Below, piece after piece: positions 4,437 through 11,905 of a DNA stretch of 26,111 nt. The notes beneath the pieces are model-generated. The model searched no databases and was not told the origin of the DNA. It saw only the letters and a list, made by a program, of their open reading frames with translations. The DNA lies in IMG/VR virus record IMGVR_UViG_3300043313_001143, positions 1 to 26,111 of that record; one strand, given 5' to 3'. The translations under genes were made by a program, and so were the position numbers. The first letter of the stretch is position 1. The number at the start of each line of letters is the position of its first letter. This DNA is from a virus.

Positions 4437-5762
4437 ATGCCACCAGACGAGACAGCAACCCCAGCGACCGAGACGAGCGAAGGCAGTCGAGGGAGCGAGT
4501 TTTCCAAGCCCACCGGGGCGGGAGATGATGCGTTATGGGCGAAACACTTCGGAGCGGACGCGAAGGAATCGACGTCGAGCAAGTCATCGTCAAAATCAGA
4601 GAGCGATGGCAAGCCCGCGGCGGGCAAGTCGAAGACCTCCGAGAGTGGGAAGGCTGCCTCCGGGAAATCGCCCGAGCCGACCAAGAGCAAAGCCGAGCCC
4701 TCATCGTCTTCGCCGAAGGAGTCGAAGTCACCGAAGAAGGACGACGCATCGGCGGCCACTGGGCAGAAGACTGCTGACAAAGACCCCGACCCCGAGGCCC
4801 CCAGTCGCAAGGCCCGCGATCTCTACGAGCAAGCGGAGAAGACCGAGGACCGGAAGGAAGCCCGCAAGCTGTATAAGAAGGCTCTAGTCGAGGCCTTCGG
4901 CAAGGTGCCGCCGGAGTTCGACGACAAGCGCTACGTCGCCGTCCGCACAGAACGAGCCGCGGCCCAGAAGGTCATCGACGAGAAGGCGGCCAAGGTCGAG
5001 TCCAGAATCGTCGAGGCCAAGACCAAGCTCCAGCCCGCGATCTACGTGATGCGCAAGCTGGAGGACTCGGGGCTGGCCGACAAGCTCAGTGTCCCGTTCG
5101 TGGAGCAGGCCGTCCGCGTGATGAAGGCGATCAAGGCCATCGAGGGCGGGGACTTTACCCAACTGGCGGAGGCCATATCCCTTGCCAGTGGCGTCGACCA
5201 CGACGAGGCCATGAAGCGCTTCGTGCGCGGCGTAAAGGTCTCCCCCGAGGGCAAGGCGTCCCGGGAAGCTGCAGCCCGCGCGGAGGCCAGGGCAGCAGCA
5301 GCAGAGGCCCGCATCCAGGAGATGGAACGCCGGCTGAGCGAAGAGAAGACGACCCAGACTGCCGAGCAGACCAAGGCCGAGCAGGCCCGCAAGGCCGAAG
5401 CCCACCGGGCGCAATACCTCGAGGACATGACGGCCGAGCTCGACGGGCACCCCGTTCTGCAGCTGCCCAACGGGGCCAAGCGCGTCTTGGCCTACCTCAT
5501 CCGCACGGCCACACCCAATAAATCCGCCCGCTACTCCTTCGAAGAAGCCGCCAATCGCGTGGTAGCCCACGAGAAGAAGCGGGTGGAATCGGCTCGGTTC
5601 CTGGTGGAGGGCGACCCGCCTCCTGCTCGTTCGGAGCCCCGGCAGATCCGGAGCGTGTCCCGGACGGAGACGGCGGACGCCTCGGTGAGGAGCGCGGATC
5701 CGATCGAGCGCTTCAACGACATCTTTGACAAGCACGCGCCCAAACAGCGGAGGGCACGGTGA
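4437..5762 (+). CDS. Capsid scaffolding protein
   Basis: 441 residues. Scaffolds template procapsid assembly and then leave the shell. The features seen fit: a disordered Lys/Ser/Glu-rich N-terminus (residues 1-115), helical middle, a long Ala/Glu/Arg coiled coil (about 272-330) and a basic C-terminal tail (FNDIFDKHAPKQRRAR), the type of end that contacts coat protein. It lies between portal and the capsid-related genes, as in many short-tailed phages. Its start is three bases after the preceding stop, and its stop overlaps the next GTG. The GAGACAGCAAC motif lies in codons 5-8. The low-complexity region coincides with a nested open frame (4535-4777). Confidence 0.75.
   Translation: MPPDETATPATETSEGSRGSEFSKPTGAGDDALWAKHFGADAKESTSSKSSSKSESDGKPAAGKSKTSESGKAASGKSPEPTKSKAEPSSSSPKESKSPKKDDASAATGQKTADKDPDPEAPSRKARDLYEQAEKTEDRKEARKLYKKALVEAFGKVPPEFDDKRYVAVRTERAAAQKVIDEKAAKVESRIVEAKTKLQPAIYVMRKLEDSGLADKLSVPFVEQAVRVMKAIKAIEGGDFTQLAEAISLASGVDHDEAMKRFVRGVKVSPEGKASREAAARAEARAAAAEARIQEMERRLSEEKTTQTAEQTKAEQARKAEAHRAQYLEDMTAELDGHPVLQLPNGAKRVLAYLIRTATPNKSARYSFEEAANRVVAHEKKRVESARFLVEGDPPPARSEPRQIRSVSRTETADASVRSADPIERFNDIFDKHAPKQRRAR
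4449..4459 (+). repeat. GAGACAGCAAC motif, copy 2
   Basis: Second exact copy of the 11-mer, inside the first codons of the scaffold gene. With copy 1 it forms a direct repeat around the 4095-4433 gene, spaced 368 bp. Confidence 0.6.
4535..4777 (+). CDS. Possible nested (overprinted) ORF inside scaffold
   Basis: 80 codons in the +2 frame relative to scaffold, from ATG 4535 with GGGAG about ten bases upstream. The product is compositionally ordinary, with a helix/strand character (GIDVEQVIVKIRERWQARGG, then ALIVFAEGVEVTEEG), while the scaffold frame over exactly this stretch is low-complexity Lys/Ser/Glu. That asymmetry is what overprinting would produce. Open shadow frames are common in this GC-rich window, so this is only a candidate. 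Confidence 0.2.
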   Translation: MGETLRSGREGIDVEQVIVKIRERWQARGGQVEDLREWEGCLREIARADQEQSRALIVFAEGVEVTEEGRRIGGHWAEDC

Positions 5763-5950
5763 GCTGGCCAGCGTCGATTGCGGAGGCGCGCGCGCGCGAG
5801 CCGGGGCGCTGGGCGGGGTTGCCGGACGTAGCCGTCGAGGCGCATCTGCGCGGCTTCACGAGCGCGGATTGTGACCCCATGGTGCTCGTCTGGGCTCTCC
5901 GCCAACGCGCGAGCGAGCACAGTCTCCGCGTGGAGGTGACGTTCACATGA
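5759..5950 (+). CDS. Small hypothetical protein between scaffold and co-chaperonin
   Basis: 63 residues from GTG 5759 (GTGA overlap with scaffold), ending in an ATGA overlap with the co-chaperonin gene. Both junctions support translation. The sequence has an Ala/Arg-rich N-terminal helix and a Trp-containing segment (MVLVWALRQRASEHSLRVEV). No family is recognised. Confidence 0.6.
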   Translation: MSWPASIAEARAREPGRWAGLPDVAVEAHLRGFTSADCDPMVLVWALRQRASEHSLRVEVTFT

Positions 5951-6723
5951 CCCAAGCCCAAGACATCGACTGGTCGATCAAGCCCGCGATCCAGACCGAT
6001 CCCGACCAGCACTTCTGCAGTGTCATCGAGCGCCCCGACATCGAGGCGAGGATCCACTCCAGCCACATCTCGGTCTACGACGCCGGGATCAAGCTCGACG
6101 GACGGAGGAACCGCCCAAGGTTGGTGGAGGTCATCGCGGTCGGTCCGGGCAGATGGGTCGACGGCGGCAGGCAGCCCCGGGAGGTGGAGACGGGCGCGGT
6201 CGTCTACGTGAAGGAGCGCACCATCCCGCTCCGCATCCACCTTCGCAGGCAAAACCATTTCTTCGTACCCATGGACGGCATCATGGCAGAACTCGACCGC
6301 GTGAACATCCGGCTCATCCCCCTCGGCAACTACGTGATGACCCGAGAGGTAGAAGAGCGCCATCGCCTCGCCGTGATGGGCGACATGCCCTTTCACATCG
6401 CCAAGACCATGGGGGTCGAGAAGAAGGGCGACGAGGCGGACGACATCGGGTGCAACAAGACCCGGATTGAAGAAGTCGTTGCCGTTGGCCCCGGAGAGTT
6501 CGGCGGCTTCAAACAGAAGCTCCGCAAGGGCATCCCTGCCTTGGGTGAAGACGAGTGGGTGCTCGAGGACACGCCCTGGTACAAGGCCCCTGCCGTCAAG
6601 CAAGGCGACCTCATCGCGTTTACAGACATGGCCCGGCCGTGTGAGATCACTCTCGCTGGCCGGAAGTACACCTTCTTCACCATGGACTTCAACGTGTGCC
6701 GGGTGCTGGACGAGGCGATATGA
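5947..6723 (+). CDS. Tandem GroES-like co-chaperonin (two Cpn10 domains)
   Basis: 258 residues with two GroES-fold repeats. Domain 1 (about 24-117) contains VEVIAVGPGRW at 60-70, an acidic turn, VYVKERTIPLRIHL and a closing strand (VPMDGIMAELD). Domain 2 (about 121-256) starts RLIPLGNYVMTRE, has EEVVAVGPGEFG at 175-186, GDLIAFTDMARP and ends DFNVCRVLDEA. The order strand / mobile-loop region / VxAVGPG / GDxVxF / closing strand is that of Cpn10. Phage co-chaperonins such as T4 gp31 cap host GroEL so the capsid protein can fold, and the gene sits in the capsid-assembly operon. A fused two-domain form is unusual and recalls chloroplast Cpn20. Start by ATGA overlap. Confidence 0.75.
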   Translation: MTQAQDIDWSIKPAIQTDPDQHFCSVIERPDIEARIHSSHISVYDAGIKLDGRRNRPRLVEVIAVGPGRWVDGGRQPREVETGAVVYVKERTIPLRIHLRRQNHFFVPMDGIMAELDRVNIRLIPLGNYVMTREVEERHRLAVMGDMPFHIAKTMGVEKKGDEADDIGCNKTRIEEVVAVGPGEFGGFKQKLRKGIPALGEDEWVLEDTPWYKAPAVKQGDLIAFTDMARPCEITLAGRKYTFFTMDFNVCRVLDEAI

Positions 6724-8193: not shown

Positions 8194-9738
8194 GTGAACG
8201 CGCTCGACCTGCTCGACCCGTGCGAAGCCCTCGCTCAGGTCGGGCTGCTCTTCGGCTTCAAGCCCCTCGATCCGGAGTGGGCCACCTGGTGCACGTTCCT
8301 CCACGAGCACCAGGGCAAGGTCGCCAACGACACCGCGACCAACATCGCGGTTCTGGCAGGGCGTCGTGCCGGCAAGACCGAGGGGTGCATCTATTGGCTC
8401 TGCCGGGACTGGAGGAGTCACCCGGGCAAGAAGAGCCTCTACGTTGCCAGCACCATCGGCTCGGCGCGAGAGATCATCTGGGACCGCCTCCACGACTTCG
8501 ACGAGAAGTACCAGATCGGCATCGAGTTCAACGAGTCCCGCTTAGAAGCCCGTTTCCCCAACGGCTACACCATCCTCGTCACGGGGTGTGAGAACAAGAA
8601 ACAAGCCAACCGGGTCGCCCGCGGCAAGCGGTTCGTGAAGGTGGTCATCGACGAGCTCGAGCTCTTCGAAGACGCGCTGATCCGCTACTTCATCCGCTCT
8701 GCCCTGAAGCCCACACTGATGGACTTCGGCGGCAAGATCATGCTGATGGGCACCCCGGGCCAAGCCCTCCAAGGGCTCTGGTATGAGATCACCGGGGCTC
8801 ATGCGCTCACTGCTGCGAACGACAACGAGGAAGAGCCCGACAGCAAGGTCCAGAAGCTCCGGGCTCGGTGGAGCGTCCACCACTTCAACGCGCTCGATAA
8901 TCCCTACATCGAGTACCCCGGAGGGGCTGCTCAATACTTCAGGGATCAGCTCGAGGAGAACGGCTGGAGCGAGGACGATCCGGAGTTCGTCGCCGAGTAC
9001 CGGGGGTTGTGGGCGAAGGACGGCAACGCCTTCATCTACAGCTTCTCGGCAGGGAAGAACCTCTACGACGAGGAAGACGAATGGGACCGGGAGGGAGCTC
9101 TACGGGTCGTCATTGGCGTCGACATCGGAGACCGGGACGGGTGTGGCTTTGCGGTCTGGGCCAAGCGGTGGGACTCGGACGAGCTCCGGTGCCTCGAGAG
9201 TTACTCGACCATCAACCTCGACGACGACGAGCTGGCCGCCGAGATCCGCAAGCTCATGAAGGCCTACCGGTCCCACAACGTCTTCATGGACAGCAAGGGC
9301 CACGGAGCGACGACCATTTGCAAGAGCATGCTCAACTACGGCATCCCCGCCCAGCCCGCGGAGAACAACCATAAGAAGCTCCCTCTCATCCGGGCCCTGA
9401 AGGCAGTCCTTCGGAACGGCAAGGCCAAGCTCCACCCCACGCGATGCCGGCACCTCATCGGACAGCTCCGGGCGATGGTGTGGAACGAGGACCGCGACTC
9501 GCACATGGAGGGCATCCCGGACGAGTCGATCGATGCGTCGTTGTGGGCGGTGTTTGAGCTGCGCAAGCTCGCCCTGGTGAAGCCCGAGAAGAAGCCGAGG
9601 CTCAATGCGGAGGAGTGGGAGGCGCTCCAGGAGAAGCTGGAGAACCTGGCCTCTCAACGGAGGGCGGAGCGGCTTCAGCGCCTGAGCAACCCGACGCACC
9701 GGGCCAGGCCGGCGAAGGGGCGGAGGGTCAAGCTGTAG
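8194..9738 (+). CDS. Terminase large subunit (packaging ATPase/nuclease)
   Basis: 514 residues from GTG 8194. TerL powers DNA translocation through the portal and cuts the concatemer. The N-terminal ATPase has a Walker A-type GRRAGKT (56-62), a Walker B VVIDELE with D153/E154 and the coupling motif MGTPG (185-189). The C-terminal RNase H-like nuclease has acidic residues at D310 (IGVDIGDRDG), D366 (FMDSKGHG) and D443/D447 (PDESIDAS). Length and domain order match the family. A basic C-terminal tail (residues about 480-514) may contact portal or DNA. Unusually it lies downstream of portal and scaffold and directly before the capsid gene. Confidence 0.9.
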   Translation: MNALDLLDPCEALAQVGLLFGFKPLDPEWATWCTFLHEHQGKVANDTATNIAVLAGRRAGKTEGCIYWLCRDWRSHPGKKSLYVASTIGSAREIIWDRLHDFDEKYQIGIEFNESRLEARFPNGYTILVTGCENKKQANRVARGKRFVKVVIDELELFEDALIRYFIRSALKPTLMDFGGKIMLMGTPGQALQGLWYEITGAHALTAANDNEEEPDSKVQKLRARWSVHHFNALDNPYIEYPGGAAQYFRDQLEENGWSEDDPEFVAEYRGLWAKDGNAFIYSFSAGKNLYDEEDEWDREGALRVVIGVDIGDRDGCGFAVWAKRWDSDELRCLESYSTINLDDDELAAEIRKLMKAYRSHNVFMDSKGHGATTICKSMLNYGIPAQPAENNHKKLPLIRALKAVLRNGKAKLHPTRCRHLIGQLRAMVWNEDRDSHMEGIPDESIDASLWAVFELRKLALVKPEKKPRLNAEEWEALQEKLENLASQRRAERLQRLSNPTHRARPAKGRRVKL

Positions 9739-9776: not shown

Positions 9777-9858
9777 CTGCTACGGATTGGCCCGGGTCGG
9801 CTTCCGCTTCCCAGTCGGGCGGAGGCTCCGCATGGCCCCGCACACTCTACCAGAGGAG

Positions 9859-9888
9859 GACCCCGCCCGGGTTGCGCCGAGCGGGGTC
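9859..9888 (+). promoter_or_regulatory. 8-bp stem in the capsid leader
   Basis: GACCCCGC (9859-9866) and GCGGGGTC (9881-9888) are perfect reverse complements with a 14-nt loop, inside the 400-nt gap 9739-10138. Downstream, GCAATCAC occurs twice (9935-9942 region and again 16 nt later), possibly a binding site. No confident promoter could be placed in this gap. Confidence 0.4.
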
Positions 9889-9956
9889 GAGGTATGGATC
9901 AGCGTTCACTGTGGATTGTGCTTGCAATCACAACGAAACGCAATCACGATCCCGGT

Positions 9957-9970
9957 ACGGCTTCGGCCGT
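9957..9970 (+). promoter_or_regulatory. UUCG-tetraloop hairpin in the capsid leader
   Basis: ACGGC and GCCGT pair around the stable C(UUCG)G tetraloop (loop 9962-9965). It abuts the tandem pseudoknot units. Another C(UUCG)G hairpin, CCTC with GAGG, lies at 10071-10082 on their other side. Confidence 0.55.
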
Positions 9971-10061
9971 TCCCCGGCAACGGGAGTGACCGCGGCGAGG
10001 TCTAAAACCGCCGTCCTCTGGCAACAGAGAGTGATCCACTGCTGGATCTAAAAGCGAGCAG
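9966..10061 (+). ncRNA. Tandem GNRA-hairpin plus pseudoknot units in the capsid mRNA leader
   Basis: Unit 1 (9966-10013) has a CCCG/CGGG stem closed by GCAA (9973-9984). Then come AGT and a pseudoknot: GACC 9988-9991 with GGTC 9999-10002, and loop CGGCG 9993-9997 with CGCCG 10009-10013, bridged by TAAAAC. Unit 2 (10010-10061) has CTCTG/CAGAG closed by GCAA (10016-10029). Then come AGT and GATCC 10033-10037 with GGATC 10044-10048, and loop CTGCT 10039-10043 with AGCAG 10057-10061, bridged by TAAAAGCG. Both units open with GCCGT; the opening of unit 2 is also the 3' strand of unit 1's second pseudoknot helix. The helices differ in sequence but keep pairing, which is covariation between copies. 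A third GCCGTCC at 10063-10069 starts a degenerate unit. It lies 78 nt before the capsid start, suggesting a cis-acting leader. Confidence 0.65.
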
Positions 10062-10138
10062 CGCCGTCCACCTCTTCGGAGGGGCGAGAGAACCGAAAAC
10101 ACCGATCGCGCTCAGTCGCGGATGAGGCGTTTCTTCTC

Positions 10139-11515: not shown

Positions 11516-11905
11516 ATGTCCCGCACCATCGGAGCCAGGCCCGCCTCCGGCGCGGGTGCATGCCGGAAGGACTGCCAGATCGTCGGCATCACGGGCACCT
11601 TCACCACCTCCACCGGGGTCTTCGCGGCCACCGGGGAGCCGAACCGGGAGTACTCTCTCGGGAGCTTCACCGCCGGCGTGGCCCCCCTCACGTTTCCCAA
11701 GCACCTCACGTTCCTGTCGGGCTTCGGCTACCACAACACCGACTCGGCGACAGAGGCCGCTCGGCACCGTCTCACGGTGCGGAACGTGAACCTCGCCGCG
11801 GGGACCGCCGTGGTGCGCCTCACCCAAGAGGACGACGACTCGGAGGACGCTGATCACTCGGCGGCCACCGGCACGCTCTTCCTCACGCTCTTCACGGGAG
11901 ACTGA
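11516..11905 (+). CDS. Possible capsid decoration (cement) protein
   Basis: 129 residues, starting three bases after the capsid stop. The sequence is rich in Thr, Gly, Val and Phe with strand-like alternation (IVGITGTFTTSTGVFAATG; RLTVRNVNLAAGTAVVRL), with no coiled coil or membrane segment, and it ends in a hydrophobic strand (LFLTLFTGD). Small beta proteins right after the capsid gene are often decoration proteins. Family not identified by motif. Confidence 0.5.
   Translation: MSRTIGARPASGAGACRKDCQIVGITGTFTTSTGVFAATGEPNREYSLGSFTAGVAPLTFPKHLTFLSGFGYHNTDSATEAARHRLTVRNVNLAAGTAVVRLTQEDDDSEDADHSAATGTLFLTLFTGD

Follow-up and report, generated by a model that had tools for sequence, protein, structure and literature searches.

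The locus between the terminase large subunit gene (terL) and the probable capsid gene of this phage raises the question of whether the 400-nt gap separating them carries an RNA structure under selection and, if so, what that structure does for capsid synthesis. The DNA analysed, here termed the window, is the whole of IMG/VR virus record IMGVR_UViG_3300043313_001143 (26,111 bases). The initial annotation had described two neighbouring units at 9966-10061, each consisting of a hairpin, the trinucleotide AGT and a compact H-type pseudoknot, with C(UUCG)G hairpins on both flanks. A check of the sequence confirms both units, which sit inside the gap, and locates the flanking hairpins at 9957-9970 and 10071-10082 (Table 1); the structured region extends past 9966-10061. 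The motif GCCGTYC, proposed to open each unit, belongs in part to the upstream hairpin: the first GCCGT (9966-9970) is not part of unit 1, since the UUCG hairpin takes it as its 3' arm. The placement of the units in the leader of a probable capsid gene agrees with the position of that gene after terL and with its match to a podovirus major capsid model, a weak one under the curated cut-off (E 2.9e-6, 26.7 bits; cut-off 80), and the gene probably encodes the capsid protein. Its AlphaFold2 model was unusable (pLDDT 29), a PDB profile search gave no match, and TBLASTN with the capsid protein gave none among named phages.

Table 1. Position of genes, putative signals and RNA elements in the window.
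Feature	Position	Strand	Basis or remark
Terminase large subunit gene (terL)	8194..9738	+	phrog_2 E 2.2e-32; Terminase_6C/6N
Putative sigma-70-type promoter	9922..9950	+	TTGCAA 9922-9927, 17-nt spacer, CACGAT 9945-9950
HP0, predicted 5'-terminal hairpin ACGGC-UUCG-GCCGU	9957..9970	+	Begins 7 nt past the -10, at the predicted +1
HP1, unit 1 hairpin CCCG-GCAA-CGGG	9973..9984	+	Sequence; counterparts in L002 and L057
Unit 1 AGT linker	9985-9987	+	Sequence
PK1, H-type pseudoknot of unit 1	9988..10013	+	Bases differ but still pair in L002, L057 and L059
PK1 helix S1 GACC/GGTC	9988-9991 / 9999-10002	+	Sequence
PK1 helix S2 CGGCG/CGCCG	9993-9997 / 10009-10013	+	Sequence
PK1 A-rich crossing loop L3 TAAAAC	10003-10008	+	Sequence
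HP2, unit 2 hairpin CUCUG-GCAA-CAGAG	10016..10029	+	Sequence; counterparts in L002 and L057
Unit 2 AGT linker	10030-10032	+	Sequence
PK2, H-type pseudoknot of unit 2	10033..10061	+	Descriptor scan; L002 counterpart
PK2 helix S1 GATCC/GGATC	10033-10037 / 10044-10048	+	Sequence
PK2 helix S2 CTGCT/AGCAG	10039-10043 / 10057-10061	+	Sequence
PK2 A-rich crossing loop L3 TAAAAGCG	10049-10056	+	Sequence
HP3 hairpin CCUC-UUCG-GAGG	10071..10082	+	Paired counterparts in relatives
Start-site domain	10088..10138	+	GAGAA 10088-10092 pairs with UUCUC 10134-10138 adjoining AUG
Probable major capsid protein gene, 457 aa	10139..11512	+	NCBIfam NF033394 capsid_maj_Podo; 3' of terL

Searches with the capsid and terminase proteins against viral contigs and 84,980 species genomes yielded three relatives: L002 (IMGVR 3300044983_000249; capsid 94% identical), L057 (contig JAEUAF010000022.1 of a Sorangium sp. 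MAG; 81%) and L059 (IMGVR 3300048896_000254; 76%). With the window the comparison comprises four genomes, two of them close, and gene order in the terL/capsid neighbourhood is identical in all three relatives. Much of the L057 contig has a viral appearance, so its assignment to Sorangium is at most a hint of the host. A terminase profile run across the viral contigs added no relatives, and a capsid profile run against the phylum (379 genomes) and class (318) of L057 matched the L057 genome alone. By BLASTN, the leader had no significant match in named phages and the units had none in plasmids. Two pattern searches were discarded: the exact pattern CCGGCAACGGGAGTGA occurs at 12 viral loci, all without the element, and AGTGACCN{5,12}GGTCNAAAAC at 36 loci, of which only L030, the L002 contig, carries the same element. 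Most of the large proteins encoded at 2065-24283 (667, 441, 979, 545 and 613 aa) lack a convincing Pfam, PHROG or NCBIfam match, which places the phage group far from described ones. A gene at 5947-6723 contains a GroES/Cpn10-like stretch (Pfam Cpn10 E 3.1e-5; NCBIfam GroES E 6.5e-7) and is conserved in L030 and L057. The tRNA-Gly(CCC) called by ARAGORN at 11763-11834 (- strand) lies antisense inside an ORF conserved in the relatives, at whose loci no such tRNA is called, and is probably a false positive.

A hairpin-pseudoknot module sits at the homologous place before the capsid gene in all four genomes; further copies before the capsid genes of related phages, which the initial annotation had suggested looking for, were thereby found in L002, L057 and L059. 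There are two units in the window and in L002, one and a partial second in L057, and one in L059. The first pseudoknot of L002 combines S1 GACCU/GGGUC and S2 CGGC/GCCG with the loop GAAAACC, and the second S1 GUCCC/GGGGC and S2 CUGC/GCAG with the loop GUAAAACAG. Unit 1 of L057 has the hairpin CUCGC-UUCG-GCGAG, followed by S1 GACUC/GGGUC, S2 CUACC/GGUAG and the loop CCAAAACUA; its second hairpin, CCCGG-GCAA-CCGGG, retains GCAA, and no compact A-looped pseudoknot was found after it. In L059 a compound hairpin precedes S1 GGACC/GGUCC, S2 CUACC/GGUAG and the loop CUAAAU. The unit hairpins of L002 have the stems CUCG/UGGG (counterpart of HP1) and CUCCG/CGGAG (HP2), HP0 corresponds to GUAGC-CUCG-GCUAC in L002 and GCAAGGC-CUCG-GUCUUGC in L057, and the counterparts of HP3 (GCCC-CAC-GGGC, GCUCG-AAA-CGAGC and GUCGA-N7-UCGAC) are all paired, none being interchangeable. 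The helices thus differ between genomes, often on both strands, while pairing and the A-rich crossing loop are retained. Compensatory change had been read from the two units of the window as a mark of RNA selection; the three relatives, which were new to that reading, bear it out, S1 and S2 keeping their pairing with changed bases and the helices being conserved. The claim of a constant GCAA loop did not survive the comparison, as it holds only for the window and one L057 hairpin, the other unit-hairpin loops of the relatives being UUCG, a hexaloop, a 14-nt loop or part of a compound hairpin. Constancy of AGT and UAAAA is true of the window, but in the relatives all that is kept of them is a short linker and a loop containing AAA.

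MAFFT misaligned the units, and instead of building a covariance model, pairs were counted on a hand alignment of the four genomes. Every helix strand pairs with its own partner, whereas swapped partners pair in only 4/28 cases for S1, 4/24 for S2, 7/40 for the unit hairpins, 0/6 for HP0 and 0/12 for HP3, a count that is partly circular in that the helices had been chosen for pairing. A descriptor scan is for this reason the fairer control. The descriptor (stems of 4-5, L1 of 0-2, L2 of 0-1 and L3 of 5-10 holding AAA) was written after the motif had been seen, which makes the chance figures somewhat optimistic. It finds an AAA-looped compact pseudoknot in all four leaders, with two each in the window and L002. 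At least two occur in 0.27% of 1500 dinucleotide shuffles of the window leader (0.0027), and two or more at a frequency of 0.0007 in shuffles of the L002 leader; one or more occur at 0.081 for the L057 leader and 0.025 for that of L059. The product of these frequencies, with L002 omitted as too close, is about 5e-6 under this post hoc descriptor. Among 180-nt tiles from the four genomes, leaders included, 17 of 736 contain at least one such pseudoknot, and the matches away from the leader are scattered. Without the demand for an A-rich loop, isolated H-type pseudoknots turn up often by chance in DNA as GC-rich as this.

The minimum folding energy of the whole leader, taken as a single sequence, is ordinary (z -0.27), and the case is consequently built on comparison and not on energy. 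Nested folding gives PK1 S1 a pair probability of 0.00 in the window, and in L002 and L057 HP0, HP1 and PK1 S1 stay at or below 0.07, with alternative folds scoring better. This result is neither fatal nor supportive, since the folding program cannot score pseudoknots. HP1 and helix S1 of the relatives contain G-U pairs, for which the opposite strand would give A-C mismatches, which points to a structure of + strand RNA, in the sense of the capsid transcript. Comparison of the four sequences leads us to conclude with high confidence that the hairpins and pseudoknots are conserved as RNA structure in the capsid leader.

Upstream of all four leaders lies a promoter-like element (TTGCAA or TTGACA, exactly 17 nt, CAnnnT; that is, TTGnnA-17-CAnnnT). 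In a generic promoter scan 9922-9950 fails, and its -10 is weak. The first hairpin starts 7-8 nt past the -10-like element in the window, L002 and L057, and at the predicted +2 in L059. We infer from this arrangement that the capsid transcript has its 5' end at about 9957 and is driven by a promoter located in the terL-capsid gap. All four leaders share one order: putative promoter, hairpin at the predicted +1 or +2, module, further hairpin and start-site stem. The stem closing the start-site domain (GAGA/UCUC) is predicted in all four, with a maximum pair probability of 0.89-1.0, and encloses a Shine-Dalgarno GAGG (10124-10127, 10-11 nt from AUG) that is partly paired, its last two G being paired in most of the ensemble. 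The domain has energy z-scores of 0.1, -1.5, -2.8 and -2.0 in the four leaders, ordinary against shuffles in the window and better than the mean in the three relatives. A local Shine-Dalgarno hairpin (AUGAG/CUCAU) was rejected because it loses to the longer closing stem in each of the four leaders, and a 22-nt long-range inverted repeat (9905-9926/10144-10165) was set aside because one of its arms precedes the predicted transcription start. Two further features were seen in the gap. One, GGCCCGGGTCGGCTTCCGCTTYCCAGTCGGG (9789-9816), is a stretch of about 30 nt that the window and L057 (~4629-4662) share almost letter for letter amid an otherwise diverged gap. Neither L002 and L059 nor any other viral contig contains its core, and it may be a DNA or RNA site in its own right. 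The other, a strong hairpin GACCCCGCCCGG/CCGAGCGGGGTC (9859-9888) located 3' of terL and 5' of the putative promoter, weakly resembles the 3' end of the Pseudomonas sRNA P6 and is terminator-like, without a T run.

The window and L002 are 87% identical at the DNA level in the capsid gene and 82% in terL, compared to 75% in the leader (aligned positions, with large gaps). Shape, order, the A-rich L3, the predicted 5'-terminal position and the covered start site are kept among the leaders, while hairpin loop sequence, helix sequence and unit number are not, which indicates a structural role; a ligand recognizing sequence is disfavoured because the hairpin loops vary freely around a conserved shape. 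The leader is thus very probably a functional cis-acting RNA, even if the comparison spans no more than four genomes, of which two are close, and several helices give way to alternative partners in nested folding. The reported stretch would form the core of a structured 5' UTR of about 180 nt on the capsid mRNA, running from a 5' hairpin through one or two hairpin-pseudoknot modules and a third hairpin to a stem partly over the Shine-Dalgarno sequence, and would act after transcription on capsid synthesis. The 5' pseudoknots may offer a landing platform for ribosomal protein S1 and the 30S subunit (standby-type initiation), from which ribosomes would load onto the start-site domain and open it. 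Decay that depends on the 5' end would be slowed by this same structure as well. Such a standby or translation-activating leader is the likeliest mechanism for post-transcriptional control of the capsid gene, although only tentatively so: a clear, long single-stranded standby segment such as that of tisB is not apparent, pairing covers just part of the Shine-Dalgarno, and the start domain of the window is no stabler than its shuffles. Confidence in the mechanism overall is moderate to low, with standby initiation ranked first, 5'-end stabilization second and a protein operator third. That the tandem modules represent a new class of phage RNA, acting as ribosome-loading platforms in series whose copy number tunes capsid output, is an unlikely extension.

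The closest parallel to standby loading is the tisB mRNA of E. coli, in which a 5'-end pseudoknot is needed for binding of ribosomal protein S1 and 30S, the RBS being sequestered about 100 nt downstream; an H-type pseudoknot selected by SELEX was likewise bound by ribosomal protein S1, at nanomolar affinity (PMC7708055). The capsid leaders may be arranged similarly: a 5'-terminal pseudoknot with a sequestered RBS downstream is predicted in all four, from a 5' end that is itself predicted and with Shine-Dalgarno pairing that is partial. Unlike them, tisB is a chromosomal toxin mRNA activated by processing; it has a single-stranded standby stretch, not seen in the capsid leaders, and its pseudoknot has different dimensions (helix S1 9, S2 5 and L3 3 nt). 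The E. coli rpsO leader also has a pseudoknot that makes initiation depend on ribosomal protein S1, but there it is the S15 operator on its own mRNA, whereas here the gene that follows is a probable capsid gene, its AUG ~75-150 nt downstream of the pseudoknots. The STAXI motif (Weinberg et al. 2010) resembles the leader in its tandem pseudoknots and frequent UUCG loops but is found near genes for DNA-handling proteins (PMC2864571); its covariance model had no match in the window leader (E up to 10) or, in Rfam scans, in the relatives. Indeed, no Rfam 15 family reached its gathering cut-off in any of the four genomes, consistent with the initial annotation, to which no named family with this order was known, and open-access papers yielded, as weak evidence, no RNA of this order, only the comparison systems named here. 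The element is a phage leader RNA built on H-type pseudoknots, and no described RNA is known to share its order of parts.

A possible but less likely role is that of an mRNA stabilizer, in which the 5' stack of hairpin and pseudoknot would block pyrophosphate removal, RNase E or a 5'-to-3' exonuclease, with no direct part in initiation. The hairpin that each leader has at the predicted +1 or +2 speaks for it, as do the retention of shape with free helix and loop sequences and a copy number of one to two, and T4 gene 32 mRNA, with its leader pseudoknot, is a precedent, being reported as the most stable T4 mRNA (PMC3014915). A plain 5' hairpin would, however, suffice for this purpose, leaving the pseudoknot and the conserved start-site stem unexplained, and the +1 is itself a prediction.

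Gene 32 also provides the model for a translational operator, bound by the capsid or another phage protein that represses or activates capsid translation in the manner of gp32. A 2010 review considered the T4-type gene 32 pseudoknot possibly the sole viral case of translational autoregulation (PMC3014915). The capsid leaders resemble that of gene 32 in T4, T2 and RB69 (PMC3014915): in all four, an H-type pseudoknot precedes the start codon of a phage gene for an abundant protein, and start-site structure and a dose-sensitive gene product also fit an operator. In the gene 32 leader, however, just one pseudoknot is present, 67 nt upstream, and an A+U-rich gp32 track without structure comes after it (PMC3014915), whereas the present leaders have one or two hairpin-pseudoknot modules at the predicted 5' end and a folded start site, and the gene downstream matches a podovirus capsid model, not a single-stranded DNA binding protein. 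No UUAA(A) repeats were found over the start region, where the closing stem is predicted instead, so that the unstructured track required by the gp32 model is replaced by predicted structure. Hairpin loops and helices vary widely at 76-94% capsid identity, which leaves a specific protein little constant sequence to recognize, and an operator is decidedly unlikely.

Nascent leader RNAs may also modify RNA polymerase, as the put RNA of HK022 does. A processive antitermination or other transcription-regulating leader of this kind, serving the structural operon, would fit an element at the predicted 5' end of a probable structural-gene transcript, but with no downstream terminator identified as its target and no conserved loop sequence it is very improbable. 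Least probable is chance, or a DNA-level packaging or recombination site without RNA function: isolated H-type pseudoknots do arise readily here when the A-rich loop is disregarded, but the recurrence of one composite at an equivalent position in four genomes, the two-sided changes, the wobbles compatible with the + strand only and the small shuffle frequencies all argue against it.

Apart from gene 32 of the T4-type phages, there are hardly any descriptions of phage genes controlled by a leader pseudoknot. The probable capsid gene of an uncharted phage group is here preceded by a modular and repeatable leader pseudoknot with compensatory changes, alongside a folded start site. The leader offers a testable case of phages that may adjust how much of their most abundant protein is made through the shape of an RNA.
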